The position numbers and the translations under genes were made by a program. Below the pieces are notes generated by a model. It saw only the letters and a program-made list of their open reading frames with translations, was not told where the DNA came from and did not search any database. Below, one piece after another: positions 22,829 through 45,079 of a DNA stretch of 64,000 bases (positions within the stretch are counted from its first letter, which is position 1; each line of letters starts with the position of its first letter). The stretch comes from an uncultured Flavobacteriaceae bacterium (GTDB lineage Bacteria; Bacteroidota; Bacteroidia; Flavobacteriales; Flavobacteriaceae): contig CALHGE010000002.1 of assembly GCA_938029725.1 (NCBI GenBank), forward strand, positions 1 through 64,000. Direction: 5' to 3'.

Positions 22829-23341
22829 ATGATTTTAATTAGGTTACGCGATTATCTTTTACATCGAAACTTGAGTTTCAATAAGTTTGAAATTTCTTTA
22901 GGCGTCAGCCATGGTAGTATTTCTAATGCGTGGAAACGTGAGAAAAACATTGGGTCTAACGTGATTGAGAAAATAGTAATGAGCTATCCAGATATCAGTA
23001 CAGAATGGCTGCTTCGAGGTGAAGGTGATATGTTGAACATTAAAAATGCCTCTGAATCGAATCAGATCAACTCAACTGAGAAAGATTTGAATGAAGAATT
23101 AATTTCACAAACACTACTTTTTTTTAATTTAAAGAACCGTGGTGAGCTACAATCCTATTTGAAAAACGCATCGAATTCTGGAGCGATATTTCCTTTGGAA
23201 CAGATGATTTTGAAAACTTGGGAAAACAAATATGGTCAAGAGCTTAAAACAATTAAGCTTCAACTCATGACCTTATTTACTTCTCAATTAGATTATGAAA
23301 TGAAATCTGACAAAAGAAATGCTGATTCTAAAATAGTTTAA
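22829..23341 (+). CDS. XRE-type helix-turn-helix regulator
   Basis: 170 residues. The N-terminal 70 residues are a phage-repressor-like HTH of a form common in Bacteroidota: LLHRNLSFNKFEISLGVSHG, SISNAWKREKN, then SYPDISTEWLLRGEGDML. The C-terminal half is helical, charged and without a peptidase motif, so it is not a LexA/CI self-cleaving type. It overlaps the convergent next gene by 4 bp. It probably regulates the divergent gene and itself. Confidence 0.78.
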   Translation: MILIRLRDYLLHRNLSFNKFEISLGVSHGSISNAWKREKNIGSNVIEKIVMSYPDISTEWLLRGEGDMLNIKNASESNQINSTEKDLNEELISQTLLFFNLKNRGELQSYLKNASNSGAIFPLEQMILKTWENKYGQELKTIKLQLMTLFTSQLDYEMKSDKRNADSKIV

Positions 23342-23655
23342 GAAATACGTTTTACCCCAGCAACATATTCTAATTTAAAGTTAATTAAATCAACAAGAAA
23401 TTTAATTGTAGGTTCATTTCGCGATGTGTTGAACTTTTCAAGAAATTGAATGGTATCAACTGAATTCTGGCGATAAGATACTGCATGCTCTTCAACATTA
23501 ACGATTTGATTATAAAGTCCATTGAAATATATAATCATATTATTGAAATATTTTTTTTCATCGGTAAAAGAGCGTAACCTTTCCATTTCTTGAGTAAGTT
23601 TCTCAATGCCGCTAAACTCATCGATTTTCTGAGTCATTAATTGTTGTAATGTCAT
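23338..23655 (-). CDS. Hypothetical small helical protein
   Basis: 105 residues, predicted mostly helical and soluble (MTLQQLMTQKIDEFSGIEKL, then LRSFTDEKKYFNNMI). I do not recognise it. It is convergent with the XRE gene, sharing 4 bp at the ends. The start ATG is the first in frame. Function unknown; coding status rests on frame length and context only. Confidence 0.5.
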   Translation of the reverse strand: MTLQQLMTQKIDEFSGIEKLTQEMERLRSFTDEKKYFNNMIIYFNGLYNQIVNVEEHAVSYRQNSVDTIQFLEKFNTSRNEPTIKFLVDLINFKLEYVAGVKRIS

Positions 23656-24332
23656 TTTCCTAGTTTGAGTTAGTGCGGTTAGCGAAAAGAAAGATAGCTG
23701 ATGTAAAATGAAATTGCAAACTTAAAAAATGAATCAAAATGGATCTTGGTTTTTTATTATACCAGCGTTGTAATTCTGTAAATTCAACAGGTTGATACTT
23801 AAAGGGTCATGAGGGTTTTGAAAAAAAATAGTTCTGCTACGCGTTTTAATTCCGTTGTTTATTTTAAAATATTAGCATTGATGCTTGTTATATTGCGTTT
23901 TGCCTATTCTTTTCACAACAATAACTAGTAGAATTACAGATTTAGAATTGGTTTAGCAACGCTTAGGTGCTTTCGCTATCATCGCTTAGTACGGCATTCA
24001 ATGTAAGTAAAGGGCTTATGTGCAAATTACTTGGCTTTATGTTTGGTGAGGCTAATTCCCAATTGAACATTTGAATTATAAGCAGTGTGGAAAAAACGAC
24101 CGCCGTAGTGTCCTAGTCATTGCAGTTAAATTAATAGGCTTGAGTGAAGTACTGTTTTTTATGATTCTTTGAAAAATAACAAAACCACATAAGGCTTGGT
24201 TCTTTAAGTAAGCAAAAGAGTTTAGAGGGGTGGCAATAGATTTTTAACAAAACAGAGTCGAAATGAAAATAATTCACTCTAAAAGGTGATTTTTAAATTT
24301 AATTCATACATTCGCTTAAGTAAAAGTGTATA
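23656..24332. other. Gene-poor stretch of about 0.68 kb before the Phe/Tyr operon
   Basis: No long reading frame and no tRNA or rRNA signature seen. A small ORF of 39 codons at 23809-23928 (+) has a hydrophobic middle (VVYFKILALMLVILRFAY) and could be a small membrane peptide or chance. The sequence around 23940-24250 is closer in base composition to coding sequence than to spacers, so it may be a decayed gene. The last part must contain the promoter of the leader peptide. Confidence 0.4.
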
Positions 24333-24404
24333 ATGACAAACAGATATTTTTATAACAGATTCTTTTTTTACTTCTTTTTTAAGAGAAGCGCGGGACTGTT
24401 GTAG
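24333..24404 (+). CDS. Phe/Tyr-rich leader peptide of the aromatic amino acid operon (pheL-like)
   Basis: 23 codons, starting MTNRYFYNRFFFYFFF and ending KRSAGLL, then TAG. Seven Phe (residues 6, 10-12, 14-16) and three Tyr (5, 7, 13) make ten of 23 residues aromatic, which is far from chance. It is followed by mutually exclusive hairpins and then pheA. In the known attenuation mechanism, shortage of charged tRNA-Phe or tRNA-Tyr stalls the ribosome on these codons. The C-terminal codons encode the first arm of the antiterminator. The start ATG has no Shine-Dalgarno, which is normal in this phylum. Confidence 0.88.
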   Translation: MTNRYFYNRFFFYFFFKRSAGLL

Positions 24405-24457
24405 TATATTAAAGTTAAATATAATATATGAGTCCCGCGAAAAGCGGGACTTTTTTT
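24389..24457 (+). terminator. Phe/Tyr attenuator: antiterminator and Rho-independent terminator
   Basis: Three segments: CGCGGGACT (24389-24397), AGTCCCGCG (24431-24439) and GCGGGACT (24444-24451). Segment 2 can pair with 3 (8 bp, GAAAA loop, then a run of T) to make a terminator, or with 1 (9 bp, plus an inner TATATT/AATATA stem) to make an antiterminator. Segment 1 lies inside the last codons of the leader peptide, so a ribosome that reaches the stop codon covers it and lets the terminator form. A ribosome stalled on the Phe codons leaves it free. Confidence 0.85.
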
Positions 24458-24475
24458 GTGATAACAATTTTAGAA

Positions 24476-25303
24476 ATGGAGTTAAAAATAGCCATACAAG
24501 GAATACAGGGTTCGAACCACCATCAGGTGGCTAAAGACTATTTTGGAGATGCGATTGAACTAGTGGAATGTCTGTCATTTGATTTTTTAGTAGACCAACT
24601 TTTGAACGGTACCGCTGACAAAGGTGTTATGGCTATTGAAAACTCTATCGCGGGCTCTATCATTCCGAATTATAATTTGATTTATCATAAGGGGCTTCAC
24701 GTTATTGGTGAGCATTATTTAAATATTCATCACCATCTAATGGTGCTGAAAGGGCAGAAGATTCAGGATATAAAAGAAGTACGTTCTCACCCGATGGCCT
24801 TATTGCAGTGTAAAGACTTTTTTCGTCAATATCCAAATATAAAATTGATGGAAGATGTCGATACAGCCGAGACTGCAAAACGTATTCAAGAAGGGCAATT
24901 GAAGCATGTTGCCGCTGTAGCTCCGTTTGTAGCAGCTGAATTATACGGGTTGGACATCGTAGCGAAGGACATACAAACGATTAAGAATAATTCCACTCGA
25001 TTTATCATTGTAAAAACAGAAAACAAGGAGCTTCCAAAAGAGGATATAAATAAGGCATCTGTGCGCTTCGTAACAGATCACAAACGTGGTAGTTTAGCGG
25101 CTATGCTTAATGTAATGAGTGATTGTAATTTGAATTTGACAAAAATTCAAAGCCTTCCCATTATTGAATCACCTTGGAAATATGCCTTCTTTGTTGATGT
25201 AACTTTTGATGGTTATACCAATTTTGAAAAAGCAAAAGCATTGTTGAACATCATGTCAGAGGACTTTAAAGTGTTGGGTGAATATAAAAATGGTAGAGCA
25301 TGA
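24476..25303 (+). CDS. pheA: Prephenate dehydratase
   Basis: 275 residues. Start chosen at the ATG of MELKIAIQG; a longer in-frame ATG at 24428 would place the terminator hairpin inside the coding sequence and is rejected. The catalytic domain shows AIENSIAGSI and the STRF motif (NNSTRFII), and the C-terminal ACT domain (HKRGSLAAMLNVMSDCNLNLTKIQSLPI) binds Phe for feedback inhibition. It is a monofunctional form: the chorismate mutase is fused to the DAHP synthase at the end of the operon. Its stop overlaps the next start (ATGA). Confidence 0.95.
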   Translation: MELKIAIQGIQGSNHHQVAKDYFGDAIELVECLSFDFLVDQLLNGTADKGVMAIENSIAGSIIPNYNLIYHKGLHVIGEHYLNIHHHLMVLKGQKIQDIKEVRSHPMALLQCKDFFRQYPNIKLMEDVDTAETAKRIQEGQLKHVAAVAPFVAAELYGLDIVAKDIQTIKNNSTRFIIVKTENKELPKEDINKASVRFVTDHKRGSLAAMLNVMSDCNLNLTKIQSLPIIESPWKYAFFVDVTFDGYTNFEKAKALLNIMSEDFKVLGEYKNGRA

Positions 25304-26445
25304 TACAAACGGCTGATAGACTTGAAACGGTTCAAGAATACTACTTCTCTAAAAAGTTACGAGAAGTACGCGGACTTATGGCGAAAGGGCGCCCTATTAT
25401 TAATATGGGTATCGGTAGCCCCGATTTGGCTCCTTCGAAAAACGTTATCAATGCAATTAAAAATGCGGTAACCGATATCGGAGCACATCAATACCAAAGC
25501 TATCAAGGATTGCCAGAGTTGCGTGATGCTATTGCAGAGTTCTATCTTTCAAAATTTGGCGTTAAAGCTGATGCTGCGACTGAAATTTTACCTTTGATGG
25601 GGTCAAAGGAAGGTATCATGCATATCAGTATGGCCTTTTTAAATGAGGGTGATGAGGTGTTGATTCCCAATCCGGGATATCCAACATATACTTCGGTAAG
25701 TAAATTAGTTGGTGCAGTACCGCAGTATTATGATTTGGTAGAAGACAAGGGCTGGTTTCCTGATTTGGAGGAATTGGAAAAAGAAGATTTATCTAAAGTG
25801 AAGCTGATGTGGGTGAGTTATCCACACATGCCAACAGGTGCCGCAGCGACTACAATGCAGTTTGAAAAATTGATTGCATTTGCACTACGAAATAACATTC
25901 TTTTAGTTAATGACAATCCGTATAGTTTTGTTTTGAACGAGAATCCGACGAGTATTCTTAGTATTGATGGGGCAAAAAATATTGCTCTGGAATTGAATTC
26001 ACTCAGTAAAACTTTTAACATGGCTGGTTGGCGTGTGGGTATGGTTTTAGGAAACGATGAAAACTTAAAATCAATTTTAAAGGTAAAAAGTAATATGGAC
26101 TCGGGCATGTTCTACGGTATTCAAAAAGGGGCGATTGCTGCTTTAGGAAGTTCTCAAGAATGGTTTGATGACCTGAACAAGGTATATAATGCTCGCAAAG
26201 AATTAATGTTGCAATTGGTGAAGAAATTAGGGTGTACCTATGACTCTTCTTCCGTAGGAATGTTCGTTTGGGCAAAGTTACCATATGGCGTGCCATCGTC
26301 AGAAAAATTCATTGATGACATTCTGTACGATAAAGATATTTTTATCACTCCTGGTACCATTTTCGGAAGTAATGGAGAAGGCTATATTCGGTTTTCGCTT
26401 TGTGTGACGGAAGAGAAGATACAGGAAGCTATTGATAGGTTTTAA
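25300..26445 (+). CDS. PLP-dependent aminotransferase (class I/II), probable aromatic aminotransferase
   Basis: 381 residues. Fold type I aminotransferase with the PLP lysine in SLSKTFNMAGWRVGMVLG and the segments NMGIGSPDLAPSK and LIPNPGYPTYTS. In the Phe/Tyr operon it probably acts on prephenate or on phenylpyruvate and hydroxyphenylpyruvate. Exact specificity (aspartate, aromatic or prephenate aminotransferase) cannot be read. It overlaps pheA by 4 bp, which couples the two. Confidence 0.9.
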   Translation: MIQTADRLETVQEYYFSKKLREVRGLMAKGRPIINMGIGSPDLAPSKNVINAIKNAVTDIGAHQYQSYQGLPELRDAIAEFYLSKFGVKADAATEILPLMGSKEGIMHISMAFLNEGDEVLIPNPGYPTYTSVSKLVGAVPQYYDLVEDKGWFPDLEELEKEDLSKVKLMWVSYPHMPTGAAATTMQFEKLIAFALRNNILLVNDNPYSFVLNENPTSILSIDGAKNIALELNSLSKTFNMAGWRVGMVLGNDENLKSILKVKSNMDSGMFYGIQKGAIAALGSSQEWFDDLNKVYNARKELMLQLVKKLGCTYDSSSVGMFVWAKLPYGVPSSEKFIDDILYDKDIFITPGTIFGSNGEGYIRFSLCVTEEKIQEAIDRF

Positions 26446-26613
26446 AGGTAAGAGGCGTAAAATAAGTAGTTTGAAGTAAATATAAAGGAAAGGAAAAAAG
26501 CTAAAAAGTTACCATCGAAATGGCTTTCTTGAAGAAATTTTAGAGGTGTTTTTCGAAATGTTGAATAAATGAATACAGCGTATCTAAAGTCAAACGGCTA
26601 GCGCCTAAACAGC

Positions 26614-27474
26614 ATGAATATATTTATAATAGGTATTGGATTAATTGGAGGCTCAATGGCCAAGGATATCAAACGCATTATGCCGTATGCTAAAATTTAT
26701 GGTATTGATGCAAGTGAATCACATTTAGAAGAAGCCTTTGCCTTGAATTTGATTGATATAAAGTCTAGTTATGATGACTTAGGTATTGCTGATATGGTCA
26801 TTGTTAGTATTCCTGTAGATGTTCTGGTAACGGAGCTTCCTAAAATATTAGATGCTGTAAATGATGCGTGTGTAGTTTTTGATGGAGGTTCTACAAAGAA
26901 CCTAATCTGTAAGCAATTAGAAGACCATCCGAAGCGAAGAAATTATTTAGCCTGCCACCCCATTGCAGGAACAGAATTTTCTGGTCCCTCCGCGGCGATA
27001 GAAGGTTTGTATAACGGAAAGACTAATATTATCTGTGAGGTAGAAAAGACAGCGTTCAAATTGCAGGAAAGAGCATTGGAGTTGTTTCAAAGTATGGGAA
27101 TGCGTATTCGTTATATGAACCCCGAAGCGCATGATAAACACATTGCATATGTTTCTCATTTGTCGCACATCAGTGCTTTTATGTTAGGAAAAACCGTTAT
27201 TGAGAAAGAGCAAAATGAGCGCGATATTTTTGATATGGCAGGATCGGGTTTTGAAAGTACAGTGCGTTTGGCAAAAAGTTCACCCGCCATGTGGACCCCT
27301 ATTTTTGAGCAGAATAAAGATAATGTTGTAGAAACACTTGAAGAATATATTCAAAATCTGGAAGAATTTAAGCAAATGCTTTTGGAAGATAATTTTGAAG
27401 GAATTTATAATGTGATGAATAATACAAATAAGATTAAATCAATATTGAATGGAATTCCTTTAAATAAGAAATAG
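26614..27474 (+). CDS. tyrA: Prephenate dehydrogenase
   Basis: 286 residues. NAD(P)-binding start IFIIGIGLIGGSMAKDI and the prephenate dehydrogenase segments ACHPIAGTEFSGPSAA, HDKHIAYVSHLSHISA and DMAGSGFESTVRLAKSSP. It makes hydroxyphenylpyruvate for tyrosine. There is no ACT domain at the C-terminus. The 168-bp gap before it contains no terminator that I can see, so it is probably in the attenuated operon. Confidence 0.93.
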   Translation: MNIFIIGIGLIGGSMAKDIKRIMPYAKIYGIDASESHLEEAFALNLIDIKSSYDDLGIADMVIVSIPVDVLVTELPKILDAVNDACVVFDGGSTKNLICKQLEDHPKRRNYLACHPIAGTEFSGPSAAIEGLYNGKTNIICEVEKTAFKLQERALELFQSMGMRIRYMNPEAHDKHIAYVSHLSHISAFMLGKTVIEKEQNERDIFDMAGSGFESTVRLAKSSPAMWTPIFEQNKDNVVETLEEYIQNLEEFKQMLLEDNFEGIYNVMNNTNKIKSILNGIPLNKK

Positions 27475-27583
27475 GTTTTTAATGGAAAATAGAACAAAGA
27501 GTCAAGGCTAAGGAGCATAGAATAAAGAGCTCAGAGAGAAAACTAAAAATAATTTAAAAAAAGTCAGAACTAAACATAAAGTA

Positions 27584-28666
27584 ATGGAGAATACAAAAGA
27601 AATGAGAACATGGTTGGATGATATGGGTTTAGACCATCCACTAGTAATAGCAGGGCCATGTAGTGCAGAAACCGAAGAGCAAGTATTAAAGATAGCGCAT
27701 AGCTTGAAAGATACCGATGTTAACTACTACCGTGCAGGTATTTGGAAGCCAAGAACACGTCCTGGAAATTTTGAAGGCGTAGGTGCCTTAGGCCTAAAGT
27801 GGCTTCAAAAAGTGAAAGCTGAAACAGGTTTGAAAACAGCTACTGAAGTTGCGAATCGTGCTCATGTAGAGTTAGCCTTGGAGCATGATGTTGATTTACT
27901 TTGGATTGGCGCTCGCTCAACTGTGAGTCCGTTTATAATGCAAGAATTGGCTGATGCCTTAAAGGGAACAGATAAAATTGTTTTGGTTAAAAATCCGGTA
28001 AATCCTGATTTGGCTTTGTGGTTAGGAGGAATAGAACGTTTGCATACTGCAGGTATCAAGAAACTAGGAGCGATTCATAGAGGTTTTTCAACCTATGAGA
28101 AAACCAAATATAGAAATATTCCAGAATGGCAATTGGCGATTGAGTTTCAAAATAGATTTCCTGATTTACCATTGATTAATGACCCGTCTCATATTACTGG
28201 AAAGCGTGATATGATCTTTGATGTTTCGCAAACAGCACTCGATTTAAATTTTGATGGATTGATGATTGAAACACATCATGATCCTGATAATGCATGGAGT
28301 GATGCTGCACAGCAAGTGACCCCTGAGCGTTTGGTGCAAATTATGGATGATCTAAAAATTAGAAAAGAATCTGACCCTGAAGCCGCATATAATAGTAAGT
28401 TAAGCAACTTAAGAGCTCAAATAGATGTAATTGATAATACATTACTTGAAACTTTAGGAAAGCGAATGAAAATTTCAGACGGAATTGGAAGCTTGAAAAA
28501 GGAAAAAAACGTAGCCGTTTTACAATCCAACCGTTGGAATGAGATTTTAGGTAAGATGATTCTAGAAGGAGAGACAAAAGGTCTTAGTGAGGAGTTTGTT
28601 TTGAGAATGTTCAAAGCGATTCACCAAGAATCTATTAATCACCAAGAGAAAATAGTAAAAGCTTAA
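27584..28666 (+). CDS. Bifunctional DAHP synthase / chorismate mutase
   Basis: 360 residues. The N-terminal part (about 1-265) is a DAHP synthase of the type Ib class, with VIAGPCSAET, GIWKPRTRPGNFEG and LINDPSHITGKRD. The C-terminal part (about 270-350) is an AroQ-type chorismate mutase (LRAQIDVIDNTLLETLGKRM and the GLSEEFVLRMFKAIHQESI helix). It thus covers the first step of the shikimate pathway and the branch to prephenate, and completes the set with pheA, tyrA and the aminotransferase. A strong terminator follows. Confidence 0.93.
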   Translation: MENTKEMRTWLDDMGLDHPLVIAGPCSAETEEQVLKIAHSLKDTDVNYYRAGIWKPRTRPGNFEGVGALGLKWLQKVKAETGLKTATEVANRAHVELALEHDVDLLWIGARSTVSPFIMQELADALKGTDKIVLVKNPVNPDLALWLGGIERLHTAGIKKLGAIHRGFSTYEKTKYRNIPEWQLAIEFQNRFPDLPLINDPSHITGKRDMIFDVSQTALDLNFDGLMIETHHDPDNAWSDAAQQVTPERLVQIMDDLKIRKESDPEAAYNSKLSNLRAQIDVIDNTLLETLGKRMKISDGIGSLKKEKNVAVLQSNRWNEILGKMILEGETKGLSEEFVLRMFKAIHQESINHQEKIVKA

Positions 28667-28672
28667 ATAAAT

Positions 28673-28700
28673 AAAAACCCCAGCGAAAGCTGGGGTTTTT
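28673..28700. terminator. Bidirectional Rho-independent terminator
   Basis: AAAAACCCCAGC GAAA GCTGGGGTTTTT: a perfect 12-bp stem with a GAAA tetraloop and T-runs on both strands. It lies between the DAHP synthase gene and the convergent secreted-protein gene. Confidence 0.93.
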
Positions 28701-28707
28701 ATTTATG

Positions 28708-29148
28708 TTATTTTTTGAAAATATATCTTGTAATAAAAATACCAGACTTATCTCCTTTACCACCATCACTTTCAACGGCACTGGTTACGAAAGCAAGCTC
28801 CCAACCATCGGCTACCATGGCATTTATTTTTGAAGATATTAGTGCGTCGTTAGCAGCAATATTTTGAAAACGGATACCAGCGATATTAAAAAAGTTTAGC
28901 AACTTGGTTTCATCAAAGTTTTTAACTCTAATTTCATCTCTCTTAGATTTGTTACGCGTGTTATCTTCATCTGTCTGAGTTGTTGTGAACTCAGTGTGAT
29001 CTTTCTCTTCGTTAACATCTATGATTCTTGAGCGGCCAAGACCACTTGACACAATAGATTCTACACTCGTAATTACCTTAAATTGTTGAGCGCTCATACT
29101 TAGGGCTCCAAAAATAATCATTGTAATGCTAAAAATTGTTTTTTTCAT
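28708..29148 (-). CDS. Hypothetical small secreted protein
   Basis: 146 residues with a clear signal peptide (MKKTIFSITMIIFGALSMSAQ). The rest is acidic and contains a segment, KINAMVADGWELAFVTSAVE, that resembles DUF4177-like small proteins. I do not recognise the family. It ends 8 bp from the shared terminator and is convergent with the aromatic operon. Confidence 0.68.
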   Translation of the reverse strand: MKKTIFSITMIIFGALSMSAQQFKVITSVESIVSSGLGRSRIIDVNEEKDHTEFTTTQTDEDNTRNKSKRDEIRVKNFDETKLLNFFNIAGIRFQNIAANDALISSKINAMVADGWELAFVTSAVESDGGKGDKSGIFITRYIFKK

Positions 29149-29309
29149 AATACTTGAAATTTAGGTTTAATGGGTTTGATGTGTGTACAACGGAACTAAA
29201 TGAAATTAATTGTTAGTTTTTTTTAAGACAGGTACTATGATAATATTATCATATTTATTTGCTAAGAAAACAGTTACTTTGTAGTTATGGAATATTCTTT
29301 AGTTTTAGT

Positions 29310-30263
29310 ATGGTAGGAATTGTTTATAAATCTACCGGAAGCTGGTACACCGTAAAAACTGAGGAGGGTACTTTTTATGAATGTAGAATCAAGGGTAAAT
29401 TTCGTATTCAAGGCATCAAAAGCACGAATCCGATTGCGGTAGGTGATGTTGTTCAGTTTAAGATTGAAGAATTGGGCGATGCTACCGTAGGAACCATTTC
29501 TAAAATTGAAGATCGCAGGAATTACATTATTCGAAAATCGGTCAACCTTTCGAAACAAACTCATATAATTGCATCTAATCTAGATCAGGTTTTCTTATTA
29601 GTTACGCTAAATAACCCGAAGACCTATCCTGTATTTATTGATCGATTTTTAGCTTCAGCTGAGGCTTATGATATTCCTGTGGTGTTGCTTTTTAATAAAG
29701 TCGACACCTATACTGATGACGAGTTACTTGAGATAAAATATTTGGCTGCGCTCTATAGAAATATTGGTTATGAATGTATCGGTATTTCAGCAGAAACAGG
29801 AAAAAATGTAGAAAAGGTCAAAGAACTTATGATTGGAAAAACCAGCATGTTCGCAGGTCATTCAGGAGCTGGGAAATCTACTTTGGTCAATGCAATAGAA
29901 AAGAGCCTTGACCTAAAAACAAAGAAAATTTCAGAACAACACTTACAAGGGCAGCATACTACGACTTTCGCAGAAATGTATGATCTGAGTTTTGGTGCAA
30001 GAATTATAGATACTCCCGGAATTAAAGGCTTCGGAATTGTCGATATGGAGAAAGAAGAAATTGGAGATTACTTTCGAGAATTCTTTAAATTAAAAATCAA
30101 TTGCAAATTCAATAATTGCCTACATTTAGATGAACCCCTATGCGCTGTTAAAGAAGCTTTAGATAATGATACCGTGGCATGGACGCGTTACAAAAGTTAT
30201 GTTCAAATGATAACGGGTGAAGATGAAAACTATAGAATAGATATTCATACAAGTAAAAAGTAA
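29310..30263 (+). CDS. rsgA: Ribosome small-subunit-dependent GTPase A
   Basis: 317 residues from the ATG of MVGIVYKSTGSWYTV; a longer frame from an upstream TTG adds 17 residues without family similarity. Order of parts is the circular permutation of RsgA: OB-fold first, G4 (LFNKVDTYT), then the P-loop GHSGAGKSTLVN, G3 DTPG, and a C-terminal zinc knuckle (C-x4-C-x-H-x5-C in NCKFNNCLHLDEPLCA). It releases factors in late 30S assembly. A possible TTACTTTG -7 box lies about 29 bp upstream. Confidence 0.94.
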   Translation: MVGIVYKSTGSWYTVKTEEGTFYECRIKGKFRIQGIKSTNPIAVGDVVQFKIEELGDATVGTISKIEDRRNYIIRKSVNLSKQTHIIASNLDQVFLLVTLNNPKTYPVFIDRFLASAEAYDIPVVLLFNKVDTYTDDELLEIKYLAALYRNIGYECIGISAETGKNVEKVKELMIGKTSMFAGHSGAGKSTLVNAIEKSLDLKTKKISEQHLQGQHTTTFAEMYDLSFGARIIDTPGIKGFGIVDMEKEEIGDYFREFFKLKINCKFNNCLHLDEPLCAVKEALDNDTVAWTRYKSYVQMITGEDENYRIDIHTSKK

Positions 30264-43012: not shown

Positions 43013-44992
43013 TTGATCTCAAAATCTACCATAGACCAAGTATATGAAACTGCTCGCTTAGAGGAGGTTATTGGTGATTTTGTGCAATTGAAAAAATCAG
43101 GCACCAACTTTAAGGGTTTGAGTCCGTTTACTGATGAACGCTCCCCCAGTTTTATGGTGTCGCCGGTAAAGCAAATCTGGAAAGACTTTAGTAGTGGAAA
43201 AGGCGGTAATGTGGTTGCCTTTTTGATGGAACATGAGCATTTTACCTATCCTGAAGCCATAAAATACCTGGCGAAAAAATATAATATTGAAATAGAGGAA
43301 ACGGAGCGTACAGATGAACAAAAAGAGGAAGCCAACGAGCGTGAAAGCATGTATTTGGTTTCTGAATATGCTCAAAAGTACTTTTCAGAAATTTTATTGA
43401 AAAGCGAACTAGGTAAAGCTATCGGACTGAGCTACTTCAAAGAAAGAGGATTTACAGATGAGACCATTAAAAAGTTTCATTTAGGATATTGTTTAGACCA
43501 ATGGGATGGTTTTACCATGGCGGCTTTAGAAAATGCTTATCAGTTGAACTACCTTGAGAAAACAGGCTTGACTATTGTTAAGAGTGATGCTACTGATCCA
43601 AGTAAATCAAAAAAGTTTGACCGGTTTAAGGCGCGAGTTATGTTTCCTATTCACTCTATGAGTGGGAGGGTTTTGGGTTTCGGTGGCCGAATTTTAACTA
43701 ATGACAAGAAAGCGGCTAAATATCTGAATTCTCCAGAAAGTGATATTTACCATAAGAGCAAAGTGCTTTATGGAATCTATTATGCAAAACAGGCTATTGC
43801 CAAGGAGGATAATTGTTATTTAGTTGAAGGCTATACCGATGTTATCCAATTTCATCAAAGAGGAATTGAGAATGTGGTTGCTTCAAGTGGTACCGCCTTA
43901 ACTTCTGATCAAATTCGACTTGTCAATCGCTTGACCAAAAATATCACAGTCCTCTTTGATGGTGATGCCGCAGGGTTGCGTGCTTCTTTACGTGGAATCG
44001 ATTTGATTTTGGAGCAAGGCATGAATGTGAAGATTTGCACTTTCCCAGAAGGAGAAGATCCTGATAGTTTTTCAAAGAATAATGATTTAGAGGAAGTTCT
44101 TGAATATTTAAATACAAATTCTAAAGACTTTATTCAATTCAAGGCTAATCTGTTAGCTGAAGAAGCAGCCGACGACCCAATTAAGCGAGCGGATACAGTT
44201 CGAGATATTGTGAATAGTATTGCAAAAATTCCTGACGCAATCAAACGAGAAATTTATATTCAGGAATGTGCGAGTATTATGAATGTTTCTGAGGGTGTTC
44301 TTTTTAGCACGCTTGCTCAGATAGGAAAAAAAGATGTAGCTGACGCTTCAAAAAAAGTACAACAAGAACAAAAAGCGTTTGCTGTTGTCAAGAATGAAGT
44401 TGCTGTTGAAAAGGTAGATGTGCAGTATGAGCTAGAGCGCAAGATTATAGAAATTCTATTACTCTACGGTAAAGAGCAGCAAGAGTTTGAAGATTTAGTT
44501 TTAAAAGAAAATGAAGAAGGTGATTTGATTTTAGAACCAGAGTCTTCAGAAATAAAGGTTTATGAGAAAATCTATTTGGATTTACAGGATGATGAGATTG
44601 AGTTGACCAATGAAAAATTTCGAAATATTTATCTGAAGCTTATCGCCGAACTAAATGAGAAAGAAGATTTTGCCGTAAATACCTTCTTGGTAAATTTAGA
44701 TCAAGAGATGATTTCAGAAGTGTCCTCTATTTTGATGGAAGAAGAAAAGTACGCTTTGCATGATTGGGCTCGAAAAGAAATTTACCCAAAGAGGAAGGAA
44801 ACGGTTGTCTCACAATTGGTGAGTGAGACAATATTGACATTGCGTTGTTTTTTGATTAAAAAAAGAATGGCAGCGCTTCAAAATAACACAAAAGATAATC
44901 AAGAAGATAACCGCGAGACACTCGAAGAGATTATGAATTACTTGCAGTTAAATACGCTTCTCAATAGAAAGTTGAATAGGGTTCTTTCGTAA
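43013..44992 (+). CDS. dnaG: DNA primase lacking zinc-binding residues
   Basis: 659 residues, TTG start (the only good start before ISKSTIDQVYETARLEEVIGDF). The Toprim core shows LVEGYTDVIQFHQRG and LFDGDAAGLRASLRG. The N-terminal zinc-binding domain is retained in outline, but its four ligands are replaced: GLCPFH and CFGC of other primases read GLSPFT and DFSS here (S37, T40, D58, S61). The C-terminal DnaB-binding helical domain is present. It makes RNA primers at the replication fork. A strong bidirectional terminator follows. Confidence 0.95.
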   Translation: MISKSTIDQVYETARLEEVIGDFVQLKKSGTNFKGLSPFTDERSPSFMVSPVKQIWKDFSSGKGGNVVAFLMEHEHFTYPEAIKYLAKKYNIEIEETERTDEQKEEANERESMYLVSEYAQKYFSEILLKSELGKAIGLSYFKERGFTDETIKKFHLGYCLDQWDGFTMAALENAYQLNYLEKTGLTIVKSDATDPSKSKKFDRFKARVMFPIHSMSGRVLGFGGRILTNDKKAAKYLNSPESDIYHKSKVLYGIYYAKQAIAKEDNCYLVEGYTDVIQFHQRGIENVVASSGTALTSDQIRLVNRLTKNITVLFDGDAAGLRASLRGIDLILEQGMNVKICTFPEGEDPDSFSKNNDLEEVLEYLNTNSKDFIQFKANLLAEEAADDPIKRADTVRDIVNSIAKIPDAIKREIYIQECASIMNVSEGVLFSTLAQIGKKDVADASKKVQQEQKAFAVVKNEVAVEKVDVQYELERKIIEILLLYGKEQQEFEDLVLKENEEGDLILEPESSEIKVYEKIYLDLQDDEIELTNEKFRNIYLKLIAELNEKEDFAVNTFLVNLDQEMISEVSSILMEEEKYALHDWARKEIYPKRKETVVSQLVSETILTLRCFLIKKRMAALQNNTKDNQEDNRETLEEIMNYLQLNTLLNRKLNRVLS

Positions 44993-45024
44993 TACAGAAA
45001 CTAGTTTTAAGAGTTTTAGAAAAT

Positions 45025-45057
45025 AAAAAAAGCCTGACAAAGGTCAGGCTTTTTTTA
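45025..45057. terminator. Bidirectional Rho-independent terminator after dnaG
   Basis: AAAAAAAGCCTGAC, loop AAAG, GTCAGGCTTTTTTT. The T-runs on both strands serve dnaG and the convergent response regulator gene. Confidence 0.93.
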
Positions 45058-45079
45058 TGAACTGTTAATACATGCGTTG

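Follow-up and report, generated by a model that had tools for sequence, protein, structure and literature searches.

A classical transcription attenuator operated by a translating ribosome very probably controls the pheA, aminotransferase, tyrA and DAHP synthase-chorismate mutase genes of an uncultured Flavobacteriaceae bacterium, whose assembly (3.8 Mb in 81 contigs, approximately 92% complete) includes the window, the whole 64,000-nucleotide stretch of DNA analysed here. A leader ORF with conservation of its codons, two alternative stems that both covary and the spacing between codons and stems were observed at this locus. Together with the near-universal presence of the leader in the pheA loci sampled from the family, this coding signature, the covarying stems and the constant spacing strongly support leader-peptide attenuation that would read Phe and Tyr codons.

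Layout of the pheA leader and operon

The ORF upstream of pheA (Table 1) is short and rich in codons of the pathway, with Phe and Tyr accounting for 10 of its 23 codons in the window and no Trp codon. Arm 1 sits inside the last leader codons, and an intrinsic terminator (24431-24457) lies between the leader ORF and pheA, ahead of the first structural gene. Because both use 24431-24439, the terminator and the antiterminator exclude each other, and the antiterminator also overlaps the end of the ORF. Two mutually exclusive hairpins and a T-run before pheA had been predicted from the sequence of the window, and these are present at the predicted segments, with covariation in both stems. In local folds, the antiterminator (24388-24440) reached -23.4 kcal/mol and the terminator (24428-24452) -16.7 kcal/mol, and the region 24320-24480 folded better than 200 of 200 dinucleotide shuffles (z -3.6). 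The stem is unlikely to serve as the terminator of an upstream gene, the nearest upstream ORF of at least 100 aa (23338-23655) being on the other strand and the nearest plus-strand ORF ending at 23341.

Table 1. Observed and predicted features of the pheA attenuator and operon (window coordinates), and of a second candidate leader in the same genome.
Feature	Position	Strand	Remarks
Candidate -7 promoter box TACATTCG	24307..24314	+	26 nt before leader ATG
Leader peptide ORF MTNRYFYNRFFFYFFFKRSAGLL	24333..24404	+	23 codons, 7 Phe and 3 Tyr
Segment 1 (probable), 5' half of leader	24350..24363	+	predicted to pair with 24392-24404
Inner hairpin over last Phe codons (predicted)	24371..24388	+	24371-24377 with 24382-24388
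Segment 2, arm 1 CGCGGGACT (24389-24397) and stop region	24389..24404	+	predicted to pair with segment 1 or segment 3
Segment 3 AGTCCCGCG	24431..24439	+	common to antiterminator and terminator
Segment 4 GCGGGACT (24444-24451) and T-run (24451-24457)	24444..24457	+	intrinsic terminator with segment 3
pheA, prephenate dehydratase	24476..25303	+	PF00800, E 1.8e-56; probable start ATG 24476, ORF list 24428
Class I/II aminotransferase	25300..26445	+	PF00155; overlaps pheA stop
tyrA, prephenate dehydrogenase	26614..27474	+	PF02153, PF20463
DAHP synthase-chorismate mutase fusion	27584..28666	+	PF00793, PF01817
Operon-end terminator	28667..28706	+	18-pair stem, then T-rich tail
trpE-like leader ORF MKTRNTNTWWWNNSRQSS and GGCCTGTC...GACAGGCC hairpin	L248 2053-2109, contig C57	minus	

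The second and third genes, and the third and fourth, are separated by 168 and 109 nt, respectively. No terminator-like stem was found in these two gaps among the four genes, a strong stem lies after the fourth gene, and the order pheA, aminotransferase, tyrA, DAHPS was kept in 15 of 20 stretches (in L266, L271, L273, L274 and L275 it differs or is incomplete in the stretch). This layout suggests co-transcription and agrees with the original prediction that the four genes would be governed together. Downstream of the operon lies rsgA (29301-30263 of the window), a place where it also appears in 11 of the 20 stretches; some of the 20 are too short to reach that position.

The only pheA ORF listed for the window takes as its start an ATG that falls within the attenuator (24428), and the Pfam PDT match spans residues 5-183 of the shorter form of PheA starting at 24476; the earlier warning that gene finders may call pheA from an ATG upstream of the hairpin is therefore reasonable.

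Of 172 distinct stretches, 152 carry the pattern TAnnTT[TCA]G between 45 and 12 nt ahead of the leader ATG, most often at -26, compared with 16 of 174 for a control stretch further upstream. This enrichment is no more than suggestive, because the pattern was relaxed after looking. The strict TAnnTTTG box was not enriched in the same comparison (9/172 versus 12/174), and a pattern that includes a -33 element occurred in 29 of 176 stretches versus 14 of 178. The relaxed -7 box is possibly a promoter variant of the pheA operon.

Conservation of leader codons, stems and spacing

Among the matches listed, the closest named PheA proteins were from an uncultured Flavobacteriaceae bacterium and Maribacter. 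Of 59 relatives, 43 gave a PheA match, as did 186 of the 199 family genomes and 41 of the 149 class genomes; in the scan of named genomes, the best 80 of the listed matches were retained. A subset of the family matches provided 213 pheA upstream stretches (29 from relatives, 104 from the named and family scans and 80 from more family genomes), 202 of them distinct; two repeats of the window's own locus (L001, L118) and two truncated loci (L029, L066) were left out. As these sequences are related, the counts given below are not independent.

Upstream of pheA, 209 of the 213 stretches hold an ORF that starts with ATG, has 10-40 codons and includes seven or more F, Y or W codons forming at least 30% of the total, compared with 104 of 4260 dinucleotide shuffles. 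By the same measure, the stretches upstream of 50 window ORFs of at least 150 aa gave three passes, pheA itself being one of these. When re-cut, L121 also has a leader (210 of 213). L028 has a weaker ORF of 17 codons, and no aromatic leader was found upstream of pheA in L022 and L216, both from Flavobacteriaceae. The latter two, as family members without a detected leader, are possible attenuator losses.

The Phe and Tyr codons of the leaders vary mainly at the silent third base: the seven-codon aromatic runs of the 170 distinct leaders comprise 1190 codons, and in these C occurred 426 times at the third base, 3 times at the first and 23 times at the second, a pattern that marks them as Phe and Tyr codons conserved at the coding level. 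Both amino acids were present in 170/170 distinct leaders, and Trp codons in 101/170. The Phe/Tyr-rich leader of 23 codons (seven Phe, three Tyr) first predicted before pheA is thus real and conserved, and the alignment of Flavobacteriaceae pheA upstream regions proposed along with it revealed conserved aromatic codons as well as covarying terminator and antiterminator stems.

Arms 1, 2 and 3 lie in segments 2, 3 and 4, and their statistics cover 181 of the 202 distinct loci, the remainder being three loci without a detected leader and 18 leader loci missed by the strict terminator finder, in each of which a G+C-rich hairpin and T-run are visible by eye (the T-run is short in L124). Subsets were chosen by hand, comprising 64 of 149 references, of which 38 were used for terminator covariation and the covariance model. 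RNAalifold analysis of these 38 relatives, a set from which the row of the window and the G000-G013 loci were removed, showed changes on both sides in 7 of 10 terminator pairs, with at least one compensated sequence each. Statistics for arm 2 with arm 3 (the terminator stem) are partly circular, since pairing served to locate the terminators. Arm 1 was picked by consensus similarity, blind to pairing, and over 119 distinct triples its pairing with the arm 2 of the same locus exceeded that with shuffled partners (z 10.6). In 77 triples, for the most part from a single genome per genus, Watson-Crick pairs made up 390 of the 462 inner antiterminator pairs, versus a shuffle mean of 349.9 (sd 5.0), and 0 of 5000 shuffles reached this number. 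At one stem position, G-C is replaced by A-U, on all three arms in some loci and with G-U in arm 3 in others, and in Flavobacterium arm 2 changes from AGTCCC to AATCCT, and the other two arms change to match.

Among the results that count against the attenuator, the consensus-chosen arm 1 was not the best-pairing arm in 31 of 181 loci, the minimum-energy fold from leader to arm 2 contained 0 of 8 arm 1:arm 2 pairs in 74 of 175 loci, and in 63 of 175 the terminator equalled or exceeded the antiterminator in stability. The outer pairs of the antiterminator frequently fail to form: of the 119 triples, 79 lack pair 1, 30 lack pair 2 and 42 lack pair 8.

In toeprint data, a ribosome covers approximately 10 nt beyond its A-site codon. 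The 8-base core of the window's arm 1 begins 9 nt past the last Phe codon, and a ribosome stalled on that codon would therefore just free arm 1. This spacing is kept across the 181 loci, where the last codon of the aromatic cluster and the start of arm 1 are a median of 9 nt apart (8 at the first decile, 13 at the ninth); in 168 of these loci the ORF contains arm 1. Arm 2 starts a median of 26 nt past the stop codon, and a ribosome that has reached this codon would mask arm 1 and leave arm 2 exposed.

A probable fourth segment and competing readings

The original prediction described a design of three segments, whose arms and attenuation logic stand but which missed a probable fourth segment, the 5' half of the leader pairing with arm 1 and the stop codon. 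When folded alone, the leader forms a long hairpin (24350-24363/24392-24404) around the inner Phe-codon hairpin. In 58 gap-free leaders, the window's included, 93.2% of cells in the 1:2 helix and 97.0% of those in the inner hairpin are paired, and the whole protector hairpin has 94.6% of its cells paired, a figure that drops to 59.7% or 59.3% after a shift of one column; these 58 were drawn from 61 distinct 23-codon leaders (L059, L199 and L204 were left out) and counts with all 61 were similar. The cells of the 1:2 hairpin with two-sided changes exceed all 500 shuffles, and the pairs with two-sided changes number four, a value that 86 of 500 shuffles reach.

Shuffling the codon order of the leader's 5' half gave worse folds on average in 59/59 loci of the window's length class, in 42/47 and 20/20 loci of two other classes and, weakly, in 26/38 loci of the mixed 'other' class, 17 of the 181 loci not entering this test. 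A long 1:2 hairpin built from different letters is also predicted in 27-codon and, in part, 26-codon LYV-type leaders and in the Flavobacterium class; within these other classes, which are small, shuffles give no clear pairing excess. For 25-codon LYV leaders, in which no gap-free test was possible, the consensus fold contained the inner hairpin alone. An inner hairpin of at least 5 bp was found in 168 of 175 loci (6 of 181 were skipped as too short), and in 123 of 135 segments it had a lower energy than synonymous Phe/Tyr recodings had on average. Synonymous recoding made a small difference to the pairing of arm 1 with upstream codons (0.512 versus 0.467), which was higher in 112 of 170 leaders.

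A default-on attenuator of three segments, with no functional 1:2 protector, would let polymerase read through an untranslated leader. We consider this unlikely, although the antiterminator alone is more stable than the terminator (-23.4 versus -16.7), the fold from leader to arm 2 consists of the inner hairpin and the antiterminator with the long 1:2 hairpin absent, and the compensatory evidence for 1:2 is modest. Against it stand the prediction of the long 1:2 hairpin, in different letters, across the 23-codon, LYV-type and Flavobacterium classes, and the worse folding of codon-order shuffles in the three classes named above. A four-segment layout (1:2, 2:3, 3:4) is therefore probably correct and is favoured here, short of proof, with the 1:2 hairpin supported less firmly than the ORF, the alternative stems and the spacing.

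With four segments, transcription would begin just upstream of the leader ORF and the leader RNA would form the 1:2 hairpin. When charging of Phe-tRNA or Tyr-tRNA falls short, a ribosome would stall in the aromatic run and open this hairpin and, because its 3' edge would end about where arm 1 begins, segment 2 would be left free; pairing of segment 2 with segment 3 would then block the terminator and the operon would be read. When the amino acids are plentiful, a ribosome at the stop codon would cover segment 2, allowing 3:4 pairing and termination at the T-run; in an untranslated leader, the 1:2 hairpin would tip the balance towards termination as well. We infer this transcription start, the termination, the stalling and the response to Phe and Tyr from the sequence.

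Such a leader might sense mainly something other than the charging of Phe- and Tyr-tRNA, for example translation speed or a stall on nascent poly-Phe. The aromatic run is long and hydrophobic, and Phe and Tyr, the two signals originally predicted, hold in that every distinct leader has both, whereas the Trp codons in 101 of the 170 suggest that the signal may be broader. The match of the codons to the pathway, the occurrence of F and Y in all leaders, and the presence in the same genome of a W leader upstream of an anthranilate-synthase-like gene and an H leader upstream of hisG nevertheless make a different principal signal very unlikely. It is extremely unlikely that the terminated leader RNA doubles as a trans-acting small RNA: its likeness to the Bacteroidetes FopS sRNA family is sub-threshold (25.5 bits versus a gathering threshold of 56), the FopS match spans the terminator hairpin and may resemble any terminator, and conservation tracks the codons and alternative stems. 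A plain terminator accompanied by a chance aromatic ORF has a negligible probability and was rejected on the shuffles, control stretches and covariation, for although TTT is common in AT-rich DNA, eight ORFs in the whole window pass a loose aromatic criterion and a terminator scan of 23650-28800 gave 4 hits versus 3.1 expected in shuffles, the leader is conserved in 209/213 stretches and bears the third-base signature, the spacing and the covariation of arm 1.

Known attenuators, distribution and significance

All seven Rfam matches (E up to 10, 24000-25000) were rejected as known elements, these being Phe_leader, FopS and Trp_leader, each sub-threshold, and four others; no T-box or riboswitch family was among the seven. 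The enterobacterial pheA attenuator combines a Phe-rich leader peptide with an alternative antiterminator and terminator and has pheA as its target. The corresponding family, Phe_leader (RF01859), is functionally of the same kind as the Flavobacteriaceae element, which scores 25.7 bits in the window (E 0.084), below the gathering threshold of 55, and which differs from the enterobacterial attenuator in having Tyr in 170/170 and Trp in 101/170 leaders and in an operon that adds an aminotransferase, tyrA and DAHP synthase. The trp attenuator has four segments, with the regulatory codons in segment 1 and segment 2 masked by a ribosome at the stop codon. Trp_leader (RF00513) is similar in this four-segment layout, but the window scores 23.8 versus a gathering threshold of 41, and the amino acids and genes are others.

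The uORF of the ilvB-II motif in Corynebacterium (PMC10272879) is likewise conserved and rich in the amino acids of its pathway, overlaps an alternative structure and precedes a terminator; it differs in belonging to Actinobacteria and to branched-chain amino acids. According to a 2010 paper (PMC2965389), no such attenuator had been demonstrated beyond Proteobacteria and Actinobacteria, the atypical ermC leader excepted, until its own Firmicutes example, and short ORFs resembling leader peptides have been described in long 5' UTRs of Bacteroides (PMC7366714). The 2021 transcriptome of F. psychrophilum (PMC9723704) reports structured 5' elements upstream of pheA and hisG that are conserved in other genera, the pheA element also in Flavobacteriaceae and without an Rfam hit. 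In the same paper, amino acid operons of F. psychrophilum are reported to show strong clues to attenuation by leader peptides, and flavobacterial mRNAs are stated to lack Shine-Dalgarno sequences.

The belief that this type of locus was undescribed consequently does not hold, as a conserved 5' element of pheA and clues to attenuation had already been reported (PMC9723704). Because F. psychrophilum was not named among the fetched loci, we infer the identity of the two elements from the shared gene and family and from the agreement in location and conservation. The relevant section of that paper describes neither a peptide nor segments, and reports neither covariation nor any occurrence beyond the family; exact segments may be in its supplement. 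Taken together, the sequence evidence describes a well-supported classical attenuator of which there was partial prior notice.

Further candidates occur in the same genome. A gene resembling anthranilate synthase component I, taken as trpE, is preceded by the short ORF MKTRNTNTWWWNNSRQSS, containing WWW, and a terminator-like hairpin (Table 1); GACAG in the last codons of this ORF could pair with CTGTC. The hisG gene is preceded by the short ORF MRNKNTHHHLLTGCQAR, containing HHH, and a strong terminator hairpin (L247:1198-1308, contig C81), and a simple arm inside this ORF was not seen by eye. No ATG-started leader next to a terminator was found for ilvD and two homoserine dehydrogenase genes. 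A 15-pair terminator-like stem lies upstream of ilvD (L255:977-1011, contig C31), and the 150 nt before it contain no ATG-started ORF of 8-45 codons.

The covariance model built from 38 relatives gave a single match in the assembly, at 24366-24460 (E 3e-8), in a search with E up to 0.1 that scored 150 of 4838 first-look candidates. Within the window (E up to 1) there were six matches, led by the element itself (5e-10); the next two, at E 0.016 (minus strand, operon-end terminator) and 0.048 (44976-45060), both lacked other support. Outside the family, a slightly looser criterion identified an aromatic leader at 15 of 26 Bacteroidia pheA loci, two of which (L231 and L246) are doubtful by eye, compared with 22 of 1040 shuffles of the same stretches, and no leader was found at the other 11 of these 26 loci. 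Phage records contained no match to the attenuator element. The chances are about even that a single multi-aromatic attenuator (Phe, Tyr, in many lineages also Trp) was present early in the class Bacteroidia and was kept before pheA while its peptide, stems and gene content drifted.

The switch is of a textbook kind that has been little described so far in this bacterial group, and it would explain the joint tuning of the aromatic branch by Phe, Tyr and sometimes Trp. Its practical yield is a seed for a covariance model and a warning on pheA starts called inside the attenuator. If the reading of one early attenuator kept across Bacteroidia is true, the N- and C-terminal codons of the leader peptides would be shaped by RNA pairing and not by the peptide, and the coupling of polymerase and ribosome would be tight enough for classical attenuation in a group without Shine-Dalgarno sequences. 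The wide distribution of the leader offers a natural test of transcription-translation coupling in Bacteroidota.
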